A stretch of 64,000 bases of DNA, from contig NZ_JAHCSH010000003.1 of assembly GCF_018474005.1 (NCBI RefSeq), positions 434,001-498,000 on the forward strand, given 5' to 3'. Made by a program: the position numbers and the translations under genes. Under the pieces are notes generated by a model. That model was not told where the DNA came from. It ran no database searches and saw only the letters and a list, made by a program, of their open reading frames with translations. Origin of the DNA: Curvibacter sp. CHRR-16 (GTDB lineage Bacteria; Pseudomonadota; Gammaproteobacteria; Burkholderiales; Burkholderiaceae_C). This document shows positions 33,159 through 43,422 of the stretch, one piece after another (the stretch's first letter is position 1; every line of letters starts with the position of its first letter).

Positions 33159-33905
33159 ATGACTGCGAAACCCCGCATCCTCATTGTTGAAGACGAATCT
33201 GGCATTGCCGATACTTTGCAGTACGTGTTGTCTACCGACGGTTTTTCGCCCGTGTGGGCCAGTACCGCACACGATACCATAGCCCAGTTCAGTGCAGAGC
33301 CGCCAGCGCTGGTGGTGCTCGATGTCGGCCTGCCCGATCTCAACGGTTTTGAACTCTTTCGCCGCTTGCAAGGCCTGCCCGGTGGCAGCCACGTGCCCAT
33401 GCTGTTCTTGACCGCTCGCAGCGATGAGATTGACCGTGTAGTGGGCTTGGAGTTGGGGGCGGATGACTACATCGCCAAACCCTTCTCCCCGCGCGAGCTA
33501 GTGGCGCGTGTGCGCACCATATTGCGCCGCAGTGCTCGTTTGGCCGCATCCAGCGCAACTGCAACCGTGCCAGCGGTGCCAACACCCGCTAGCAACCCCG
33601 CCATCTGGGCGCTTGATGAAGAGCGCTACCAAATCCGCTTTTACGGCAAGCTGCTGGAGCTATCCCGCTACGAATACGGCGTGCTGCGCCTGCTGGTGCA
33701 AAAGCCCGGCCGCGTCTACACCCGCGATGAACTGCTGCTGCAGGTCTGGGGTGGCGACAACGACAGCTTTGACCGCACGGTAGACGCCCACATCAAAACC
33801 CTGCGCGCCAAGCTCAAGGCCGTAGCACCCACGCTGGAGCCTATCCGCACCCTGCGCGGCACGGGCTATGCGCTGAACGAAGAACTGCCCGCCACTGCGG
33901 CATGA
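33159..33905 (+). CDS. creB: Two-component response regulator CreB
   Basis: A 248-residue OmpR-class regulator. The receiver domain (about 5-118) has the acidic pocket (VEDE), the phospho-acceptor Asp55 (VVLDVGLPD) and the Lys of IAKPFSPREL; the winged helix (about 145-240) contains RYEYGVLRLLVQKPGRVYTRDELL and the end RGTGYALNE. CreB identity rests on the typical CreC partner, a four-base overlap (ATGA) with creC, and a perfect CreB-type TTCAC operator 3 kb downstream. In E. coli and Pseudomonas CreB binds tandem TTCAC repeats and responds to carbon source or cell-wall stress. Confidence 0.9.
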   Translation: MTAKPRILIVEDESGIADTLQYVLSTDGFSPVWASTAHDTIAQFSAEPPALVVLDVGLPDLNGFELFRRLQGLPGGSHVPMLFLTARSDEIDRVVGLELGADDYIAKPFSPRELVARVRTILRRSARLAASSATATVPAVPTPASNPAIWALDEERYQIRFYGKLLELSRYEYGVLRLLVQKPGRVYTRDELLLQVWGGDNDSFDRTVDAHIKTLRAKLKAVAPTLEPIRTLRGTGYALNEELPATAA

Positions 33906-35350
33906 GCAAAAGAAGCCGCATCTTCTTAGGCTTGCTGCTCATCTACGCAGTGGGCATGGCCTTGGTGCTGTACCGCGTGGTGGCAGACCTAGACCCGCGC
34001 TACCGCGAGTCCGCCGAAGAGTCATTGGTCGAAACATCGCAAATACTGGCCAGTTTGGTCGAGCAAGACGAGCGCGATGGCGCCATCGACACGGCCCGAC
34101 TGGACAGCCTCTTTAAGGCCAGTTACGCGCGCGAGTTCGACGTACAAATTTTCAACACCCGCAAAGCCCATGTCGAATTGCGCGTCTATGTCACCGACAA
34201 GCACGGCGCGGTGCTGTACGACTCTACAGGGCAGGCACAGGGGCAAGATTTTTCGCAATGGCGCGATGTTCGCCTCACCCTGCAAGGCGAATACGGAGCC
34301 CGCACCACGCTGGACATACCCGGCCACCCCGACTCTGCTGTCATGTACGTGGCCGCCCCCGTACGCAGTGCCACCAGTGGCGAGATCATCGGCAGCCTGA
34401 CCGTGGGCAAGCCAGTGCAGAGTTTTGGCCAGTTTGTGGTGGCAGCACGCAGCCGCACGCTGTACGCGGGCCTTCTCTCCGTGCTGGCCGTGCTGGTGCT
34501 GGGTGTGACGGTTTCGGTATGGCTGGTGCGGCCCTTTGGCCTCACTGCCGACTTTGTGCGCTATGTGAAGGCCCAGCCGGGTTTTCACCCCGGCCGCCTG
34601 CTGCGCCGCGCCTGGGATTTGCTGCGCGCTGCGTTTGACGAAATGCGCGACGCCCTGGCCGGGCGCAACTACGTGGCCGACTATGTGCAGACCCTCACAC
34701 ATGAAGTGAAAAGCCCGCTGTCCGCCATCCGCGGCGCGGCCGAGCTGCTGCAAGAGCCCATGGAAGAAGCGCAACGCCAGCGCTTCCTTACCAACATCCA
34801 GCGCGAGACCCAGCGCATCCAAGAGATGGTGGACCGCATGATGGAGCTCACCGCACTGGAAACCCGCCGCGTGCTGGACAACGTGCAACCCGTGCCACTG
34901 CGCCCCCTGCTGGAAGAACTGGCCCATGCCAGCCAAGGCGTGGCCACGCAGCGTGGCATCCGCATCAGCGTGCAAGCCGAGGCCGACGCCACCGTGGAAG
35001 CCGACCCCTTCTTGCTGCGCCGCGCCGTGAGCAACCTGCTGGACAACGCCCTGGACTTCTCCCCCCAGGGCGGCACTATCGAACTTGGTTTGGCGCTAAA
35101 TGGCCGCTGGGCCCAGATCAGCGTGCGCGACCAAGGGCCGGGCATTCCTGCGTACGCGCAAGACAAGGTGTTTGAGAAGTTCTATTCGCTCGCGCGGCCG
35201 CATTCGAAGAAGAAAAGCACGGGGCTGGGGCTGAGCTTTGTGAAAGAGATTGCTTCGCTGCACCGGGGGCGTATTGAATTAAGCAATCGGCCAGAGGCTG
35301 AAGGCACTGGCGCTGCTGCCACCCTGTGGCTGCGCACGCGTCAAGGCTAA
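33902..35350 (+). CDS. creC: Sensor histidine kinase CreC
   Basis: A 482-residue inner-membrane sensor kinase. There is one N-terminal helix (about 7-27), a periplasmic sensor domain to about residue 185, a second helix (186-210), then the catalytic core. Phospho-acceptor His267 lies in TLTHEVKSPLSAIRGAAELL. N box NLLDNALDF, G1 DQGPGI, F region FEKFYS and G2 GLGLSF are all intact. The length matches CreC (about 474). No creD follows; the next genes are a toxin-antitoxin pair and a decayed duplicate of its own 3' end. Confidence 0.92.
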   Translation: MSKRSRIFLGLLLIYAVGMALVLYRVVADLDPRYRESAEESLVETSQILASLVEQDERDGAIDTARLDSLFKASYAREFDVQIFNTRKAHVELRVYVTDKHGAVLYDSTGQAQGQDFSQWRDVRLTLQGEYGARTTLDIPGHPDSAVMYVAAPVRSATSGEIIGSLTVGKPVQSFGQFVVAARSRTLYAGLLSVLAVLVLGVTVSVWLVRPFGLTADFVRYVKAQPGFHPGRLLRRAWDLLRAAFDEMRDALAGRNYVADYVQTLTHEVKSPLSAIRGAAELLQEPMEEAQRQRFLTNIQRETQRIQEMVDRMMELTALETRRVLDNVQPVPLRPLLEELAHASQGVATQRGIRISVQAEADATVEADPFLLRRAVSNLLDNALDFSPQGGTIELGLALNGRWAQISVRDQGPGIPAYAQDKVFEKFYSLARPHSKKKSTGLGLSFVKEIASLHRGRIELSNRPEAEGTGAAATLWLRTRQG

Positions 35351-35363
35351 GCCCGGCAGATAC

Positions 35364-35651
35364 CTAGCGTTTCAGCTGCGTGTAGAAATTTTCATGCGGC
35401 CCCACGGCCAGCAGAACCAGCTCTGTGGGCTTTTTCTTGTCTGGCCGCAAGCTATACGCCAGCAAAGTTTCTTGCGCGTTCATTTTGAACTTGTAGACAA
35501 ACACCTCAGCCAGATCGCCCCGCTTTTCTATGCCCAAGCTAAGGTCTGCAGCGACTGCCCGAATCGCCGCATCCAGCACCTTTTTGTCTTTGGCATGGAG
35601 CTTCTTGGCAATGCGTGTGAAAGACGGAGTGGCAACGACGTTCAAAGCCAC
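35364..35651 (-). CDS. RelE/ParE-family toxin-like protein
   Basis: A 95-residue basic protein with the fold pattern of RelE/ParE toxins: ATPSFTRIAKKLHAKDKKVLDAAIRAV, then LAEVFVYKFKMN and LLAYSLRPDKKKPTELVLLAVGPHENFY. RelE-type members cleave mRNA at the ribosome and ParE-type members inhibit gyrase; which applies here is open. It uses a GTG start 6 bases after the antitoxin stop and in the same frame, so reinitiation is likely. It converges on the creC 3' end with a 13-bp gap. Confidence 0.82.
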   Translation of the reverse strand: MALNVVATPSFTRIAKKLHAKDKKVLDAAIRAVAADLSLGIEKRGDLAEVFVYKFKMNAQETLLAYSLRPDKKKPTELVLLAVGPHENFYTQLKR

Positions 35652-35657
35652 AACGCA

Positions 35658-35876
35658 TCAACCGAACTGATAGGGCTCAGCTTGCCCGGCCTTGGTTTCC
35701 TCCAGCGACAGCATGGTGTCCTGAATCATGCGCAGGGGCATGTCCGGGTTCTCCAGGACGCATTTGCCAATGCGAGCCCAGTATTCAATCTGCTTGGGCA
35801 CTGACCGGTGCTCGGCCGCAGCAGTAGCCTTAGCGTCTTCTACCAATTCGTCCGATAACTTGAGTGCAACAGCCAT
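35658..35876 (-). CDS. ParD-like antitoxin
   Basis: A 72-residue protein with a ribbon-helix-helix-like N-terminus (ALKLSDELVEDAKATAAAEHRSVPKQIEYWARIG) matching the ParD-like antitoxin family, and a C-terminal tail that would wrap the toxin. The start at MAVALKLSD is fixed by GGGAG 7 bases upstream; a 24-codon upstream extension would run through the promoter. It is the first gene of the pair, as is usual for autoregulated antitoxins. Confidence 0.82.
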   Translation of the reverse strand: MAVALKLSDELVEDAKATAAAEHRSVPKQIEYWARIGKCVLENPDMPLRMIQDTMLSLEETKAGQAEPYQFG

Positions 35877-35900
35877 TTGAAACTCCCATTGGATGGGGGT

Positions 35901-35929
35901 ATTTTGCCGCAGAATGCAACCTTTTGCAA
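35901..35929 (-). promoter_or_regulatory. Promoter of the toxin-antitoxin operon
   Basis: On the minus strand TTGCAA, a 17-base spacer and CAAAAT form a plausible sigma-70 promoter 25 bases before the antitoxin ATG. Two tandem GGTTGCA repeats 10 bases apart overlap the minus-35, a likely site for antitoxin autorepression. Confidence 0.5.
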
Positions 35930-36092
35930 CCAGGTATGGAATGGTCATTGAATTAAAGCCACTGAACTTAGTATCGGCAAGCCTTCGGGAACTACGGTGA
36001 ACTGGCGAATGCAGGCTGACGGCATGTCAACTTGACGGCACCTTCGGTAGCGACCTGAGTGGAGCGGCTGCACGATGCACCTACCAAACATG

Positions 36093-36295
36093 AGAATCCC
36101 CTGCTATACGCAGGACAAGGTGTTTGAGAGGTTCTACTCACTGGCGCGACCGCACTCCAAAAAGAAAAGCACGGGGTTGGGGCTGAGCTTTGTGAAAGAG
36201 ATTGCTTCTCTGCACCGGGGGAAGGTGGAGTTGGGAATACGCCAGAGGCGGAAGGCCCGGGTGCATGCGCGGTCCTTTGGTTGCCGCGAAGTGCA
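36093..36295 (+). pseudogene. Truncated, frameshifted duplicate of the creC 3' end
   Basis: Bases 36093-36232 align without gaps to creC 35141-35280 at roughly 80-85% identity by eye, including the stretch encoding QDKVFERFYSLARPHSKK and the G2 box GLGLSF. Shortly after (near 36240) one base is missing relative to creC and the reading frame shifts, so the last codons no longer correspond. Nothing upstream of the F-box region is present. With the intact creC it brackets the toxin-antitoxin genes (35351-36092), which suggests insertion at the creC 3' end or recombination with a diverged creC allele. The rest of the 535 bp between the antitoxin and OLD genes holds only the TA promoter. Confidence 0.85.
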
Positions 36296-36411
36296 GAATA
36301 GCGTTTCAACTAGGTCCGCTTTGCGGCGATAACTGACTGTGATAGACCGCAGCAAATATGCCAACTCCGCCGCATAGCTGACATCCCTTTCTCTTGTAGT
36401 GCTGGCGTGGG

Positions 36412-38280
36412 CTACTGAGCTTGAAACCCCGGGAGTTTTTTGTGGACTACTGTATTTACATTCTCGTCAGCGCCAATGTCGAAAGGAAAAGACTCTCGCT
36501 TGAAGAGCGAGGAGGCGATATCAACCTTAATCCGAAGAGTCTTTTCGTCTGAGCAATTATTTAGGATGAAAACCCCGGCATGCGAACCAATAGTCGCTCT
36601 CGCGATTGCGTTCAATTGTTCATCAGTGGTATTCGGCGCCATCGTCAGAAAAGCGGCACTCAATGCAGCACCAAGCTTAGGGCGAAGTAGGAGGTCTTCA
36701 TCGACGCGGTGATTTGGCGCAACGAGTGTTAGCGCTTTGAGTACGTCAGCATAGTTGCTCTCGAGGTCGCTTGGCTCTGAGGAGTCAAATTTTGCTGCCA
36801 CTGCTGCCGCACGATCAGGTTTGCTCTTGTCTGATACTCCATCGTCGTAGTAGTTTTCGATCGCTCCGCGCGTGAGAAAAAAACATCCCAGTCTGGAGAG
36901 CGCTTCGAGAAGCACCAGATATCGAGTTCGTAGACCAGATGCATCTGCAACCGCAGATTCATCAAAAGAGTTTGGCTTCGTTAACAGGCGCGCAAGAGTA
37001 ACCCGTCGAACGCTCGGCGACTTCGAACCACTGCTGGACCAGTCGTCGTACGCACTCGCGGCCGCGTCGACTGCAGTCTCGTGCTTAGTGATGAACTTCG
37101 ACAAGTCAACGCGCAAGTCTCCGTCGAGGTCCGCGAGCGATGTTCGCCCGATACTTTGAGCAACCGATGATGCGTCTGGAAGGTCACTGAAGTCTCGGAC
37201 CAGAGTGTTGTCATCTGCTAAAGCATCCAAATCTGCGAGTACGGCAACGTGCTTGCCCATCAATCGAAAGAGTTTCGCGACTTCCGGAAACTCGCCTTTA
37301 CCTGTAACTGGGAGAATCTGTGCATTGCGAGCCAGAAGTCGTTGGTTCATGCGACTTGCGAGTTGTGACGCGATGATTTCGTCGCTGGGCCCCTCCACCA
37401 AAAGCACGCGCTCAGCGAATACCGCCATACGGTGGGTGGCGCTAAGTCGGGCCATCAGTGCTGAGAGCTTGGATCGTTTAAGTATCTCGTCGCTTGCATC
37501 GACTTGCGCGGGAGCTCGAAGAGCCGAACTAAAGAAAGCGATTGATGGCAACTCACTCAGTGAGCGGAACTGCATTAGAGCCGCCGAATGTGTTGCAATG
37601 ACAATCAGTTTCTTACCTGGGTCGATAGGATCTCCCGCGACACGTTGCATCTCCTCAAGAACGAATGCCTGATGCTGAGGATGCAGTGATATTTCAGGCT
37701 CATCTATCAGAAGTGCGCCGATGTCATCATTGTGGATGGCGGCCAGTAGAGCAATCAGTTGGAGAACTCCACTTGCTTCATGGTTTGCCGCGTACGGGCT
37801 ACCACCCAGCATCGGAGAAATCGCAACCGTCAGTCCAGCTTGCGACCAATTTAGTTCGATGCTTCGATCGAACAATTGTTGCAGTCGTGCCTCAACCTTA
37901 AGGCGTAAATCTGCTCTTTGATTAAGTGCTAGCAAGACACCGGTGATTGACTCCAGATTCCACCACTGACTTTGAAAGCCGATATGGCCAACGGCTGCAT
38001 CCTCTAGGGGAATGTAGCTTGGATTGTCAACCGCCGATCGGAATCGCTCCATCGGACTGGTTCGCCCTGCTGCGAGTAAAAGGACCTTGCGTCCCGTATC
38101 CGAGATGCCCCGCACCGATGCAACGGCACTCTTGATCGCACGCAGTGCGCGTGTTTTGCCAGTACCGTTCGGGCCTACCAGAGTAGTCAGCCCTCGTTGA
38201 ACGAAGACGGTACCCTGATTGGGGGACTGCCCAATCAAATTGATACTGACCTTCAAAGGCCAAGCCTGCTCAACTGACAT
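36412..38280 (-). CDS. OLD-family ATPase with TOPRIM nuclease domain
   Basis: A 622-residue protein with an N-terminal ABC-type ATPase and a C-terminal TOPRIM domain, the layout of class 1 OLD (overcoming lysogenisation defect) nucleases. Walker A GPNGTGKT is at 36-43, Walker B LLIDEPEISLHP at 191-202, and the switch His in VIATHSAAL. TOPRIM acidic residues are Glu297 (LLVEGPSDE) and the DxD pair Asp350/Asp352 (VLADLDALADD). Family members defend against phage. Base composition and codon use look clearly less GC-rich than the neighbours, suggesting recent acquisition. A strong GGGAGG precedes ATG. No UvrD-like GajB partner is adjacent. Confidence 0.88.
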   Translation of the reverse strand: MSVEQAWPLKVSINLIGQSPNQGTVFVQRGLTTLVGPNGTGKTRALRAIKSAVASVRGISDTGRKVLLLAAGRTSPMERFRSAVDNPSYIPLEDAAVGHIGFQSQWWNLESITGVLLALNQRADLRLKVEARLQQLFDRSIELNWSQAGLTVAISPMLGGSPYAANHEASGVLQLIALLAAIHNDDIGALLIDEPEISLHPQHQAFVLEEMQRVAGDPIDPGKKLIVIATHSAALMQFRSLSELPSIAFFSSALRAPAQVDASDEILKRSKLSALMARLSATHRMAVFAERVLLVEGPSDEIIASQLASRMNQRLLARNAQILPVTGKGEFPEVAKLFRLMGKHVAVLADLDALADDNTLVRDFSDLPDASSVAQSIGRTSLADLDGDLRVDLSKFITKHETAVDAAASAYDDWSSSGSKSPSVRRVTLARLLTKPNSFDESAVADASGLRTRYLVLLEALSRLGCFFLTRGAIENYYDDGVSDKSKPDRAAAVAAKFDSSEPSDLESNYADVLKALTLVAPNHRVDEDLLLRPKLGAALSAAFLTMAPNTTDEQLNAIARATIGSHAGVFILNNCSDEKTLRIKVDIASSLFKRESFPFDIGADENVNTVVHKKLPGFQAQ

Positions 38281-38444
38281 GTAACCTCCCTTGTCTCTCT
38301 TTTTAGATAGCTAAATCACCTGATTGATTCTGCCTGTAGTTCTTGGATCCGCTAGCGCCGAATTCTGCTTTACTCCGAAAGCCATCGCTCGAAAGGCGCG
38401 AGGCGTATGGCAGCAACCAGCTTGCAGAAGACATTGGCGCCCCC

Positions 38445-38471
38445 TTCACCCCGTTTTCACTCAGACTTCAC
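38445..38471 (+). promoter_or_regulatory. Triple TTCAC array: candidate CreB-binding cre tag
   Basis: TTCAC occurs at 38445-38449, 38456-38460 and 38467-38471, each separated by exactly six bases, an 11-bp period placing all three on one face of the helix. The published CreB site in E. coli is TTCAC-N6-TTCAC, so this is one and a half to two overlapping sites. A TTGACT minus-35-like hexamer lies 23 bases downstream at 38494-38499, with no good minus-10, as expected for an activator-dependent promoter. It lies 90 bp upstream of the VIT/vWA gene. Confidence 0.8.
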
Positions 38472-38560
38472 ACAAGCCCCTAGCCCCTTCAAATTGACTT
38501 CTCGCTCGGGCGGGATGCTCTCTCCACCGTGCATGCGTGCACATCGACTGGAGAAGCTTC

Positions 38561-40702
38561 ATGGCATTGGCCACCCCCCTTAGGGCTGCACAGCAAGCCC
38601 TTTTTCAGCAACCCAACACAGCCGGGCAGTCTGCCCGCGTTACCCGCATACCGGCGGCGCTGTCCCGCTGGTTGGGGGCCACTGCAGCGGCGGCAGTGTG
38701 TTTTGTGGGTTTGACTTTGCACCCACCAGTGCATGCCCAAGACTTGGATGCCGCGCCGCGCCAAAAGACCGAAAGCCCCTATTTCTTCGTCAAGAGTGAT
38801 GACCCAGCGCTGGATCAGCTACCGCTCAAGTCCACCCAGGTGAATGTGAAGGTCAGCGGCGTGATTGCCGACGTGACCGTGGTGCAGACCTACAAGAACG
38901 AAGGCCAGCGCGCCATTGAGGCCAAGTACGTGTTTCCCGGCTCCACGCGCGCCGCGGTGTATGGCATGAATGTGCGTCTGGCGGATCGCCTGATCACCGC
39001 CAAAATCCGCGAGAAGCAGCAAGCCAAGATCGAGTACGACGCGGCCAAGCAAGAGGGCAAGACCGCCGCGCTGCTGGAGCAGCACCTGCCCAATGTGTTT
39101 CAGATGAACGTGGCCAACATCATGCCGGGTGACGACGTGAAGGTGGAGCTGCGCTACACAGAGCTGTTGCTGCCCACGGATGGCAAGTACCAGTTCGTCT
39201 TCCCCACCGTAGTGGGCCCACGCTACAACAGCCCGCAGAGTTCGCAGGCCAACGCCACCTGGGTGGCCCAGCCTTATCTGCCCAAGGGTAAGAGCACGCC
39301 TACCAGTGCTGCTGCACCAGCCTTGGATATCCACGTGGCGCTCAACACCCCGGTGGCGGTGAAAGAGGTGCGCTCTAGCTCGCACAGCATCAAGACCTAT
39401 ACAGAGCAAGGCGGCGCTACGGTGGTGGGTTTGACCCCCAGTGAAGAGCCCGTCAATAACCGCGACTTCATCCTGGATTACCGCCTAGCGGGCGACAAGA
39501 TAGAGAGCGGCGTGATGCTCTACAAGGGCAAGGACGAGAACTTTTTCCTCGCCATGGTGGAGCCACCCAAAGCCCCGCCCGCCACGGCCATCACCCCGCG
39601 TGAGTACATCTTTGTGGTGGACATCTCGGGCTCCATGCACGGCTTTCCACTGGACACGGCAAAGGGTGTGCTGCGCGAGCTGATTGGCGGCCTGCGCCCC
39701 AGCGACACCTTCAACGTGCTGCTGTTCTCGGGCAGCAACAGCTTCCTGAGTCCGCAGTCCGTGCCCGCCACCAAGGCCAATATCGATCAGGCCATCCGCA
39801 CCATCGACCAACAAGGTGGCGGTGGCAGCACCGAGCTGATCCCGGCGCTCAAGCGCGTGTACGCCCAGCCCAAAAACGCCGACACCTCGCGCACCGTGGT
39901 GGTGGTGACCGACGGCTATGTGACCGTGGAGCGCGAAGCCTTTGAGCTGGTGCGCAATAACCTCTCCAGCGCCAATGTGTTTTCGTTCGGCATTGGCTCC
40001 AGTGTGAACCGCCACCTCATGGAAGGCCTGGCCCGTGCGGGCATGGGCGAACCCTTCATCATCACCAAACCAGAGCAAGCGGCCGAACAAGCCAAACGCT
40101 TCCGCCAAATGATCGACTCCCCCGTACTCACCAATGTGAAAGTGCGTTTTGAAGGCTTGGACGTGTACGACGTGGAACCCCGCCAGTTGCCTGACCTGCT
40201 GGCCCAGCGTCCGCTCGTCGTGTTTGGCAAATGGAAGGGTGAGGCCAAGGGCGCGCTGGTGGTCGATGGCAATACGGCCAACGGCCCGCTGCACATGGCC
40301 TTGCCCATAGACGCCAGCAGTACCAAAGACACCGCTGCACTGCGCCAGATGTGGGCACGCCACCGCATTGCAGAGCTGAGTGACCAAGAAGCCATGCAAG
40401 GAGGCGATGCCATGCGCCAAGCCATTACCGATTTGGGGCTGCAATACAGCTTGCTGACCCAGTACACCAGCTTTTTGGCGGTAGACCAAGTGGTGCGGAA
40501 CAAAGCCGCATCCGACACGCCCAGCGTGAACCAAGCATCCCCCTTGCCTGAGGGCGTGCAAGAGACCGCGCTGGGGGCCGAGGTGCCCAGCACGCCTGAG
40601 CCAGCCACTTGGGGAGCCATGTTGGTAACGCTGTCTGTTTTGGCCCTGCTGGTGCGCCATCGCCGCCGTGCAACCCGTTGCTCCAACCACTTCACACGCT
40701 AA
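38561..40702 (+). CDS. VIT and von Willebrand A domain surface protein with PEP-CTERM anchor
   Basis: A 713-residue exported protein. The N-terminus is a long signal sequence with a hydrophobic segment near 38-58 and cleavage near HAQ60. A VIT (inter-alpha-trypsin inhibitor type) domain covers about 85-210, with VTVVQTYKNEGQRAIEAKYVFP and the central ALLEQHLPNVFQMNVANI. A von Willebrand A domain at about 348-520 has an intact MIDAS (Asp354, Ser356, Ser358). The C-terminus is a sorting signal: PEP at 679-681, a helix at 685-698, then RHRRR. The start at MALATPL follows GGAG; an upstream GTG is less likely. The exosortase gene begins 2 bases later. Probably anchored or released at the outer surface. 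Confidence 0.93.
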   Translation: MALATPLRAAQQALFQQPNTAGQSARVTRIPAALSRWLGATAAAAVCFVGLTLHPPVHAQDLDAAPRQKTESPYFFVKSDDPALDQLPLKSTQVNVKVSGVIADVTVVQTYKNEGQRAIEAKYVFPGSTRAAVYGMNVRLADRLITAKIREKQQAKIEYDAAKQEGKTAALLEQHLPNVFQMNVANIMPGDDVKVELRYTELLLPTDGKYQFVFPTVVGPRYNSPQSSQANATWVAQPYLPKGKSTPTSAAAPALDIHVALNTPVAVKEVRSSSHSIKTYTEQGGATVVGLTPSEEPVNNRDFILDYRLAGDKIESGVMLYKGKDENFFLAMVEPPKAPPATAITPREYIFVVDISGSMHGFPLDTAKGVLRELIGGLRPSDTFNVLLFSGSNSFLSPQSVPATKANIDQAIRTIDQQGGGGSTELIPALKRVYAQPKNADTSRTVVVVTDGYVTVEREAFELVRNNLSSANVFSFGIGSSVNRHLMEGLARAGMGEPFIITKPEQAAEQAKRFRQMIDSPVLTNVKVRFEGLDVYDVEPRQLPDLLAQRPLVVFGKWKGEAKGALVVDGNTANGPLHMALPIDASSTKDTAALRQMWARHRIAELSDQEAMQGGDAMRQAITDLGLQYSLLTQYTSFLAVDQVVRNKAASDTPSVNQASPLPEGVQETALGAEVPSTPEPATWGAMLVTLSVLALLVRHRRRATRCSNHFTR

Positions 40703-40704
40703 CC

Positions 40705-41547
40705 ATGTCGTCCCTCATGCAAAAACCACGCTTCGTGCAGTTTGGGGTTGCCATAGACCGCGTGCCGCAGTGGCGCTGGTTGGCGCTCTTAGCACTGGCC
40801 TTGTGGCCCACTTGGTGGTGGATGGTGCAGCGAATGGTCGATGGCTCTGACGATCCACTGGGCGCGCTGGCCTTGGCCGCACTGGCTGTGCTGCTGTGGG
40901 GGCATCGCCGCCAGTTGCGGGCAGCGCCCCGGTTGGGCTTGCAGGCCACTGCCCTCATGGGGGCAGTGCTCACCACCGTCTTACATGGTCAGTGGCCTGA
41001 TTTGTTGGTGGGCTTGGTCAGTCTGCTGGCCTTGGCCATGGGTTTACTGGCCTTTTTGCCTACACGGGTGGCTGTAGCGCCGGTGGTGGGCTTGTCGGTT
41101 TTGTCTTTGCCGCTGTTGGCCTCGCTCCAGTTTTACGCAGGTTTCCCTCTGCGCGTGGTTACGGCCGAGGTCAGCGCTTGGGTGCTGTCCTTGGTCCATA
41201 GCGTGGAGCGCACTGGCAGTAGCTTGGTGGTGGATGGGCAGCTCATCATCGTCGATGCCCCGTGCTCGGGCGTGCAAATGGTGTGGCTGGGTTATTTCAC
41301 CGCTTGCACGGTAGCGCTGACGGTGGGGCTTGGCAATCGCAGTTTTGTACTGCGCTTGCCCGCAGTCAGCAGCTTGGTGCTGCTGGGCAATGTGGTGCGC
41401 AACACCGCGTTGGTGGGCTTGCAAGCAGGGGGTGTGCATGTGTCCTCTTGGGGGCATGACGCCATAGGCCTGCTGGTGTTGGCGGCTGTATGCACAGGCA
41501 TTGCTGCGGCCATGGGCGCATTTGCTGGCCGGGAGACGGTGGTATGA
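40705..41547 (+). CDS. Exosortase/archaeosortase-family transpeptidase
   Basis: A 280-residue polytopic inner-membrane protein with about eight helices. The invariant catalytic residues are all present: Cys187 in DAPCSGVQM, Arg232 in GNVVRNTAL and His251 in SWGHDAIGLL. Exosortases cut PEP-CTERM signals and pass the protein on for envelope attachment. Here the enzyme sits directly after the only visible PEP-CTERM protein, so it is probably dedicated to it. The start is 2 bases after the VIT gene stop; its own stop overlaps the EpsI-like start (ATGA). I cannot assign a named subtype from sequence alone. Confidence 0.93.
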   Translation: MSSLMQKPRFVQFGVAIDRVPQWRWLALLALALWPTWWWMVQRMVDGSDDPLGALALAALAVLLWGHRRQLRAAPRLGLQATALMGAVLTTVLHGQWPDLLVGLVSLLALAMGLLAFLPTRVAVAPVVGLSVLSLPLLASLQFYAGFPLRVVTAEVSAWVLSLVHSVERTGSSLVVDGQLIIVDAPCSGVQMVWLGYFTACTVALTVGLGNRSFVLRLPAVSSLVLLGNVVRNTALVGLQAGGVHVSSWGHDAIGLLVLAAVCTGIAAAMGAFAGRETVV

Positions 41548-42098
41548 ACCTGTTTGCCAACCTTTTTGTGAACCGTGTGCTGCACAAAACCCTGTGGGCC
41601 GTGCTGCTGCCTGTGTGCGCGCTGTGGGGGCTGGCGCAGGCGGTAGGGCATCGCCACACGGATGCAACGCCATCGGCTCGCTCAGTGGCTGAGTGGCCAA
41701 GTCACTGGCAAGGCCAAGCGCTGCGGCCCTTGGCATTGAGTGATGTGGAGCAGCGCTTTGCCCAGCACTTTCCGGGTACGGTGACGCGCCTCACTACAGG
41801 ATCGCAGGTGCTGGTGCTGCGCACGGTCGGCAAGCCGACCCGCATGCTGCACCCCGCCACGGATTGCTACCGCGCATTGGGCTATCGCATCCACAGCGAG
41901 CAGTTGGAGCGGCAAGCGGCAGAGCAGTTGTGGCGCTGCTTTGTGGCCGAGCGCGCTGGCCGCCAAGTGCGTGTGTGCGAACGCATAGAGGATGCGCAAG
42001 GCCACGGCTACACCGATGCCTCGGCTTGGTATTGGGCTTCCATCGTGGGGCAGTCCACCGGCCCATGGTTGGCCTACACGGTGGCCACCCCGTTGTAG
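41544..42098 (+). CDS. EpsI-like exosortase-associated protein
   Basis: A 184-residue protein with one N-terminal membrane helix (about 13-33) and a periplasmic domain. HPATDCYRALGYRI resembles the H-x-P-x-x-C-x-x-x-G-W/Y block of EpsI (DUF3485) proteins that accompany exosortases, and the C-terminal YWASIVGQSTGPWLAYTVATPL is hydrophobic. Similarity to EpsI is partial, so the assignment rests mainly on position: it overlaps the exosortase stop by four bases. The role of EpsI proteins is not settled; help in processing the cleaved product has been proposed. Confidence 0.7.
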   Translation: MNLFANLFVNRVLHKTLWAVLLPVCALWGLAQAVGHRHTDATPSARSVAEWPSHWQGQALRPLALSDVEQRFAQHFPGTVTRLTTGSQVLVLRTVGKPTRMLHPATDCYRALGYRIHSEQLERQAAEQLWRCFVAERAGRQVRVCERIEDAQGHGYTDASAWYWASIVGQSTGPWLAYTVATPL

Positions 42099-42126
42099 TG
42101 CTGCGCTACGGATGAAGGACGATGCC

Positions 42127-43422
42127 ATGTATCTCCCAAAACACCGTGTTACCCGCAGTTTGTTGCTGCTTGGGGTGGTGTTGATGCTGGGGCTGGGTGG
42201 GTTGTTGCTGGGAGCCCGTGCCCTGCTGCGACCCGCAGCGGGTGATTGGGCCACTACGTTGCACCTAGGCCCGGTGCGCATGGAGGTGGGGGTGGCTGCG
42301 CTGGTTCGGTGGGGTACTGCCCCGTGGGTGGCTAGGCAGTTGCACGGGCGCAGCGTGCCAACACGCTTGGGCCCAGTGCGCATGGCATGGGACGAAGCCA
42401 GCCAGCAGCTAAGCCTGCAATGCCAGCCCTGCACGCTGCGCAGCAGCAGTTGGGGTGGGCAGCCTTTGCGCTTGGATAGCGTCGTCATGACTGTGCAGCG
42501 CCATGCCCATGTGCTGCACGGCACTGTGCGCAGTGGGGCGGTGCGGGCTGCATGGCATGGCAATTTGCAGGCCAGTGGACTAGAGCTGCATATCGATGTG
42601 CCCGAGACGCCATTGGCCGATGGCTATGCCTTGTTTGCCAGCGTGATTCCTGAAGTAGCCCGTGTGCGCATTGGCGGTACTTTTGCACTCCAAGCCACAT
42701 TGCAATTGCCCAGCAAAGTGCTGCGTCTGCAGCCGCGTATCAACGCCATGGTGGTGCGCGGATTGGGCACCGAGGCCTGGGGGCAAGCGCGCAGCCAGTG
42801 CAGCCGTGCATTGCCTGCGCCATTTGCACGGGCAGACCTCTCTACCAGCAGTGTGCTGGCCCGCGCCGTATTGGCCGCCGAAGACCAGCGCTTTTACGAG
42901 CACCCCGGCTATGACTTGGTGGAAATGGCCAAGGCGTTGCAGCGCAACCAAGACAGCGGCGCTACTGCGCCGCGTGGTGCCAGCACCTTGTCGCAGCAGG
43001 TGGCCAAGCTGCTCGTTACCGGTGGCGAGCGCTCGCCCGTGCGCAAGTTGCGCGAACTACTCTATGCGGTGGAAATGGAGCAAACCATGGGCAAGGCGCG
43101 CATCTTGCAGTTGTACCTGTCGCACGCTCCATGGGGGGCAGGGGTGTGTGGCGCGCAGGCGGCTGCCCATGCCTATTTTGGTTTGCGGGTGGATCAGATC
43201 AGCCCTGCCCAAGCGGTGTGGCTGGCCGCCATGCTGCACAACCCCACGCTAGAGGCCCAGCGTTGGCACCAGAGCGGGCGTATCAACTTGGAACGTGCCC
43301 AATGGGTGGCCTCGGCTGTGCGTGGTTTCTCACCCAGAAAACGGGCGCAGTTGTTCGAAGCCCTGCCGCAGCTTTTTCTTGACTTGCAGCAAAACACCCT
43401 GCGTCCAGTAGGCGCAGAGTAA
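42127..43422 (+). CDS. GT51 peptidoglycan glycosyltransferase with long N-terminal domain
   Basis: A 431-residue protein with an N-terminal membrane anchor (about 10-30) and a C-terminal GT51 domain (about 245-410). GT51 motifs are AAEDQRFYEHPG with catalytic Glu252, GASTLSQQVAKLL, RKLRELLYAVEMEQTMGKARILQLYL and VWLAAMLHNP. It lacks a transpeptidase domain. Monofunctional MtgA proteins have about 240 residues; here about 200 extra residues (35-240), apparently beta-rich with repeated L/V-x-L patterns, separate the anchor from the enzyme. The start was fixed by AAGGA 7 bases upstream. It follows the EpsI-like gene by 28 bp and ends the exosortase cluster. It would polymerise lipid II into glycan strands. 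Confidence 0.88.
   Translation: MYLPKHRVTRSLLLLGVVLMLGLGGLLLGARALLRPAAGDWATTLHLGPVRMEVGVAALVRWGTAPWVARQLHGRSVPTRLGPVRMAWDEASQQLSLQCQPCTLRSSSWGGQPLRLDSVVMTVQRHAHVLHGTVRSGAVRAAWHGNLQASGLELHIDVPETPLADGYALFASVIPEVARVRIGGTFALQATLQLPSKVLRLQPRINAMVVRGLGTEAWGQARSQCSRALPAPFARADLSTSSVLARAVLAAEDQRFYEHPGYDLVEMAKALQRNQDSGATAPRGASTLSQQVAKLLVTGGERSPVRKLRELLYAVEMEQTMGKARILQLYLSHAPWGAGVCGAQAAAHAYFGLRVDQISPAQAVWLAAMLHNPTLEAQRWHQSGRINLERAQWVASAVRGFSPRKRAQLFEALPQLFLDLQQNTLRPVGAE

Follow-up and report, generated by a model that had tools for sequence, protein, structure and literature searches.

A probable CreB-activated exosortase operon downstream of creBC in Curvibacter and its relatives

PEP-CTERM sorting was first described through exopolysaccharide genes, and the version governed by PrsK-PrsR unites an exosortase, an EpsI protein, a two-component system and a conserved promoter box; it is described as relying on sigma-54 and PrsR, and as comprising many targets and exopolysaccharide genes (PMC1569441, PMC9850573). 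The proteobacterial dedicated sortase system is likewise built from a target of the VIT/vWA superfamily, a processing enzyme, there a class GN sortase, and a nearby two-component pair. The CreBC two-component pair controls a regulon in which the motif TTCACN6TTCAC upstream of creD is reported to be critical for CreB binding (PMC4689548). Elements of each of these systems meet at a locus of Curvibacter sp. CHRR-16, contained in a stretch of 64,000 nucleotides (contig NZ_JAHCSH010000003.1, positions 434,001 to 498,000), here called the window. Downstream of creB and creC lies a set of four genes (38561-43422) that encode a VIT/vWA protein, an exosortase of the XrtQ family, an EpsI-like protein and a GT51 peptidoglycan polymerase. 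Comparative sequence evidence makes it likely that this set is a CreB-activated operon serving cell-envelope stress, with an XrtQ that is probably dedicated to it.

The locus departs from the dedicated sortase system in that an exosortase stands beside the target and CreBC forms the two-component pair. The VIT/vWA protein scores 435.9 on TIGR03788, below the cut-off of 551.65, and the regulators remain far lower, creB reaching 124.3 on TIGR03787 (cut-off 335.7) and creC 121.5 on TIGR03785 (cut-off 612.2). It differs from the PrsK-PrsR system in its CreB tag, in a target that is probably single and in the presence of a peptidoglycan polymerase. The regulator pair and the tag are those of the CreBC-CreD regulon, but the output is an exosortase operon. 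XrtQ, CreBC, VIT proteins and GT51 are all known singly: the exosortase is a clear member of NCBIfam XrtQ (NF012182), a family model whose curators may already be aware of the pairing with VIT.

The layout is as follows, with gene identities taken from profile searches of the window's proteins against NCBIfam/TIGRFAM-type and Pfam models, in which scores were judged against the models' cut-offs.
33159..33905, + strand: creB, response regulator (NF008296, 299.8 bits, cut-off 273)
33902..35350, + strand: creC, sensor kinase, with a 4-base overlap with creB (NF008312, 578.2 bits, cut-off 356)
38445..38471, + strand: triple CreB tag TTCAC-N6-TTCAC-N6-TTCAC, half-sites at 38445, 38456 and 38467
38488..38503, + strand: weaker TTCAA-N6-TTCTC pair with the same 11-base step, weakly conserved across 24 genus representatives
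38561..40702, + strand: VIT/vWA protein (domain matches to PF08487 and PF13768)
40705..41547, + strand: exosortase XrtQ (NF012182, 372 bits, cut-off 270)
41544..42098, + strand: EpsI-like accessory protein (weak similarity to the C-terminal region of XrtT)
42127..43422, + strand: GT51 peptidoglycan polymerase (PF00912, 143.9 bits)

The products of creB and creC both exceed the cut-offs of their own families, as members of the CreBC pair would. The last four genes share the + strand and are tightly packed, and a low-GC (guanine plus cytosine) island separates creC from the VIT gene. A preliminary description of this DNA had recognized creB-creC followed by VIT/vWA, exosortase and GT51 genes, with which the family searches agree; it had also given the spacing, and the coordinates bear it out: the VIT gene stops at 40702 and that for XrtQ starts at 40705, the latter stops at 41547 and overlaps by 4 bases the EpsI-like gene starting at 41544, and the EpsI-like stop at 42098 is followed by the GT51 start at 42127. 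The gene order VIT-Xrt-EpsI-GT51 is kept in 116 of 123 loci.

The triple CreB tag, which that description had also spotted, corresponds to the published tag twice over. Only 5 perfect matches to the published tag occur in the window's whole genome: 2 of them, overlapping, are at the VIT promoter, and the other 3 are inside open frames, one of which is the gene of ribosomal protein S20. Conservation was assessed in 80 related loci chosen by the exosortase alone, 79 of which have VIT; L052, which ends at a contig edge and has no VIT, was excluded. The loci L136-L138, with no VIT-Xrt pair, were left out of the tag count, and L001-L005 and L086-L091 out of the scans; near-identical records were kept, and the 79 loci and the genome sample described below are partly the same records (for example, G071 and L047). 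In 76 of the 79 loci the VIT promoter has a perfect tag and in the other 3 a tag with one mismatch, always on the VIT strand and at a median distance of 57 bases before the extrapolated start. Across the 1.51 Mb of these loci there are 91 perfect tags, every one at the VIT promoter, and a control of 2012 random windows from the same loci (sample included) returned 0 perfect and 60 one-mismatch sites. Among 44 sample genomes the VIT tag is perfect in 39, has one mismatch in 3 and is untestable in 2 (L096, where a stretch of N falls within VIT, and L104, at a contig end). Because the CreB tag precedes the four genes in nearly every relative examined, they are likely to be switched on by CreB.

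A purely positional link might produce part of this pattern: the operon would have entered at the place downstream of creC that creD usually occupies, and its tag would be a relic of the former creD promoter; CreBC and exosortase sorting would not be specifically connected. VIT does directly follow creC in many loci; the 79 comprise 68 with creC upstream in the same orientation, 1 with it on the opposite strand and 10 without it, 4 of which hold just 2.5-3.2 kb of upstream sequence. Moreover, the tag recurs in creD promoters of the family, about as far from the gene as in VIT promoters: of 39 testable creD promoters, 21 have a perfect tag, 15 one mismatch and 3 two mismatches (this set was drawn from 40 of the 93 genomes with creD, L173 being left out as its start lies outside the stretch). 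Nevertheless, an accident of position is improbable, for creD is divergent from VIT and adjoins it in 49 of the 79 loci, and in 49 of 49 a perfect tag points toward VIT. Three genomes with creC remote from VIT on the same contig, at about 23 kb (G255), 38 kb (G267) and 43 kb (G091), also have a perfect VIT tag. Finally, when the 24 genus representatives are aligned by their tags, the peak of conservation falls on TTCACnCnGACTTCACACA, far above the flanks. After this peak, weaker TTC steps appear about 32 and 43 bases on, which would fit tandem sites of a PhoB-type regulator; the pair at 38488..38503 is possibly a promoter-proximal CreB site.

Regulators of the PhoB/OmpR type often bind 11-base direct repeats, and the binding of CreB here is a prediction; another regulator of this type could use the tag, with creBC co-occurring by shared ancestry. 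That prospect is more remote still, given that the published CreB tag has this very sequence and occurs also on creD promoters, and that just 1 of 45 XrtQ genomes lacks creC, namely G104, whose assembly is 76% complete. The latter count comes from a survey of 299 genomes of the window's family (Burkholderiaceae_C), mostly environmental bacteria, in which XrtQ exceeds its cut-off in 45, creC is present in 121 and creD is present in 93. Overall, creC is present in 44 of the 45 genomes with XrtQ versus 77 of the 254 without it (Fisher's test, 5.8e-19, uncorrected for phylogeny), and by genus in 25 of 26 versus 39 of 115; the association of the gene set with creBC, which had been put forward from the one locus, is thereby upheld. 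The 254 genomes counted as being without XrtQ include two with a fragmented copy (G118 and G148) and one with a piece (G027), and three same-genus genomes (G125, G217 and G287) have neither creC nor XrtQ nor GT51. When 274 genomes drawn from across the class were searched at E<=1e-20, the genome of the window was the only one to exceed the XrtQ cut-off, and G456 gave a weak match of 139 bits; at that sampling, the system therefore looks largely confined to the window's family.

The distribution of creD is nearly complementary to that of XrtQ: among genomes with creC, it is kept in 73 of 77 without XrtQ versus 18 of 44 with it. The lack of creD had been taken as a mark of the system; it holds for the window's genome, where a genome search did not find the gene, but those 18 genomes show that it does not hold for the system at large. 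The genomes that have creC without creD or a full XrtQ are G118 and G148, with their XrtQ fragments, G129 and G266. In XrtQ genomes, 9 of 9 sampled creD genes located far from VIT have a tag with at most one mismatch.

The full catalytic triad of the exosortase named earlier, C187, R232 and H251, shows no variation across an alignment of 125 sequences (125 of 125), and a PDB search at E<=1 gave no sequence relative of XrtQ. The predicted substrate of XrtQ, the VIT/vWA protein, is probably a surface protein and has an N-terminus that by eye is of signal type and a C-terminus composed of VPSTPEP, a helix and arginines (VPSTPEP...RHRRR). As a PEP-CTERM protein it is marginal: taken singly, it scores 17.5 on TIGR02595 (cut-off 16) and 19.8 on PF07589 (cut-off 20.7), and in a genome scan the latter value is 24.7. 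The element TPE[PA] is conserved in 122 of 124 sorting tails of relatives, and the tryptophan of PEP-x2-W is replaced in many of them; of the tail first described as PEP-x2-W, helix and RHRRR, TPEP, the helix and the arginines therefore stand, and an invariant tryptophan does not.

The window's genome encodes a second exosortase, XrtB (334.9 bits), and an EpsI of type B (273.3 bits), both over their cut-offs and at a locus (L086) that adjoins a WecB/TagA-type glycosyltransferase gene. Three other PEP-CTERM matches occur in this genome at E<=0.001, and the total at 0.01 is 5. Because XrtB with its own EpsI can account for these proteins, XrtQ probably has a single substrate, the VIT/vWA protein; the preliminary description had made its one-target proposal depend on this point. 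Wider sampling is consistent with it. XrtQ is the only exosortase in 24 of 47 genomes with a full or partial XrtQ, and of these 24, 13 have no PEP-CTERM match, 6 have one and 2 have two (21 of 24 thus have 0-2), as compared with 0 to 36 matches in genomes with a second exosortase. The 44 genomes that encode a VIT protein above 400 bits all have a full or partial XrtQ. In G015 and G126, an additional VIT protein belonging to this family is encoded at a locus remote from XrtQ.

Like XrtQ, XrtB is followed by an accessory gene, but the one on the XrtQ side matches no EpsI model: neither TIGR02914 nor PF11984, both of which match the EpsI of L086, finds the 41544-42095 product at E<=0.01. The likeness to EpsI is supported only by the similarity of the product to the C-terminal region of XrtT (33.3 bits), and EpsI is described as adjoining EpsH or being fused to its C-terminus (PMC1569441); the name EpsI-like accordingly denotes a resemblance, and the earlier call of an EpsI-like protein is retained in that sense. 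Its predicted structure consists of one N-terminal helix and a beta-rich domain (mean predicted local distance difference test score, pLDDT, 91.2) and has no structural match in PDB at E<=0.001. The GT51 protein scores 135.9 on TIGR02070, the model of monofunctional peptidoglycan transglycosylases, below the cut-off of 182.65. Its predicted structure has a beta-rich N-terminal domain (mean pLDDT 89.0), and a Foldseek search of the protein gave 16 matches at E<=0.001, all of them GT51 enzymes. The N-terminal part itself finds only weak beta-barrel structural rows; an AsmA-like fold, considered as a candidate, is not claimed. This domain, with no clear fold match, contains an invariant C-x2-C motif (C99 and C102; 42421-42432) that could be a disulfide or a metal site.

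Taken as a whole, these genes suggest a course of events that we infer from the locus and its relatives. CreC would sense cell-wall damage, a signal borrowed from Pseudomonas, in which PBP4 mutants are reported to activate CreBC, with creD rising 25-60-fold (PMC2654508). Once phosphorylated, CreB would occupy the tandem tag and increase transcription of the operon, as one transcript. The VIT/vWA protein would then be exported, cut by XrtQ at its TPEP tail and placed in the envelope, with the EpsI-like protein assisting XrtQ, and the GT51 enzyme would polymerize new peptidoglycan strands, helping the repair of the damaged envelope. The operon would in this way be an alternative or additional output of CreBC next to creD. 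A broader proposal, for which the odds are somewhat worse than even, is that CreBC has two interchangeable outputs in this family, one being CreD and the other a VIT/vWA protein that is processed by an exosortase and accompanied by a peptidoglycan polymerase of its own, and that the exosortase is a working part of the wall-damage response, outside the exopolysaccharide setting. The function of CreD is little known, and, if creD and the operon are alternatives, their comparison would point to that function and to the purpose of CreBC. With one predicted substrate, one enzyme and one promoter, the system is small and tractable.

A number of observations weigh against a CreB-activated, single-substrate operon for envelope stress. 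Three genomes in which XrtQ is the sole exosortase have 3, 4 and 8 PEP-CTERM matches, in assemblies that are 70-89% complete. In the 47 genomes with a full or partial XrtQ, 226 perfect tags stand against 81 control matches, which suggests that CreB may have targets beyond VIT and creD in other genomes. None of the 49 loci with a divergent creD has a perfect tag facing creD: the best creD-facing site has one mismatch in 1 locus, two in 31, three in 15 and four in 2. Among the 15 one-mismatch tags of the sampled creD promoters, that of G114 lies at -373 and in the wrong orientation. The co-occurrence with creC is corrected for phylogeny by the genus tally alone, and the two genome sets overlap partly. 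XrtQ is present without this GT51 in G035, and GT51 and creC are kept without XrtQ in G129 and G266, from which it follows that the exosortase is dispensable to the link. Stenotrophomonas creD is reported to have risen upon inactivation of creBC (PMC4689548), so CreB is not necessarily an activator everywhere. With respect to the original picture of a CreBC-controlled one-target exosortase operon, the co-occurrence, the conservation of the tag, its persistence where creC is distant and the ability of XrtB to account for the other PEP-CTERM proteins are in its favour, and the retention of creD in many genomes, the two in which GT51 outlasts the exosortase and the variable tryptophan are not.

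The operon might instead be an ordinary matrix or biofilm exosortase operon, with CreBC as a regulator of carbon use or growth state and the GT51 enzyme outside any wall-repair response. PEP-CTERM systems are described as tied to exopolysaccharide genes (PMC1569441), and E. coli CreBC is reported to respond to carbon source and oxygen (PMC3962086), which also counts against a cell-wall signal. We regard this alternative as unlikely: none of the four genes is an exopolysaccharide gene, and the GT51 N-terminal part is found in 47 of the 299 genomes, comprising 44 of the 45 with XrtQ and, elsewhere, only G118, G129 and G266, all of which have creC. An envelope-stress operon under CreB is the more probable reading of the locus.

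In open-licence literature, no report was found of an exosortase operon that is preceded by a conserved CreB tag and is nearly complementary to creD. Searches of the same literature for 'exosortase Q' found none, and the matches to 'XrtQ' are by title engineering or physics. No paper among the matches listed treats CreBC and an exosortase together, and the sole listed co-mention of an exosortase and 'vault protein inter-alpha-trypsin' concerns biotin synthesis in Riemerella. A CreB-type regulator in Burkholderia is discussed, in the passages concerned, without an exosortase or CreD (PMC5192318).

Several smaller features accompany the locus and its relatives. In most Variovorax loci a half-conserved site with two mismatches lies on the minus strand toward creD. 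In G129, which lacks both creD and XrtQ, the locus (L136) has creBC, a perfect tag after creC, a short frame recognized by eye and GT51; it is a natural reduced version of the module. In the window itself, the island between creC and the operon carries, on the minus strand, a pair encoding a ParE-like toxin and a ParD-like antitoxin (35364-35948; PF15781 and PF11903), followed by a minus-strand gene for an OLD-type ATPase-TOPRIM protein (36412-38280), whose best PADLOC families are Old and GajA. The stretch holding the latter has a GC content of ∼53% versus ∼62% around it, and the gene has the look of a defence gene acquired by insertion. Two copies of the 3' end of creC flank the toxin-antitoxin pair (35147-35269 and 36100-36221, 88.6% identity over 123 bases), and this duplication may be a scar of the insertion.

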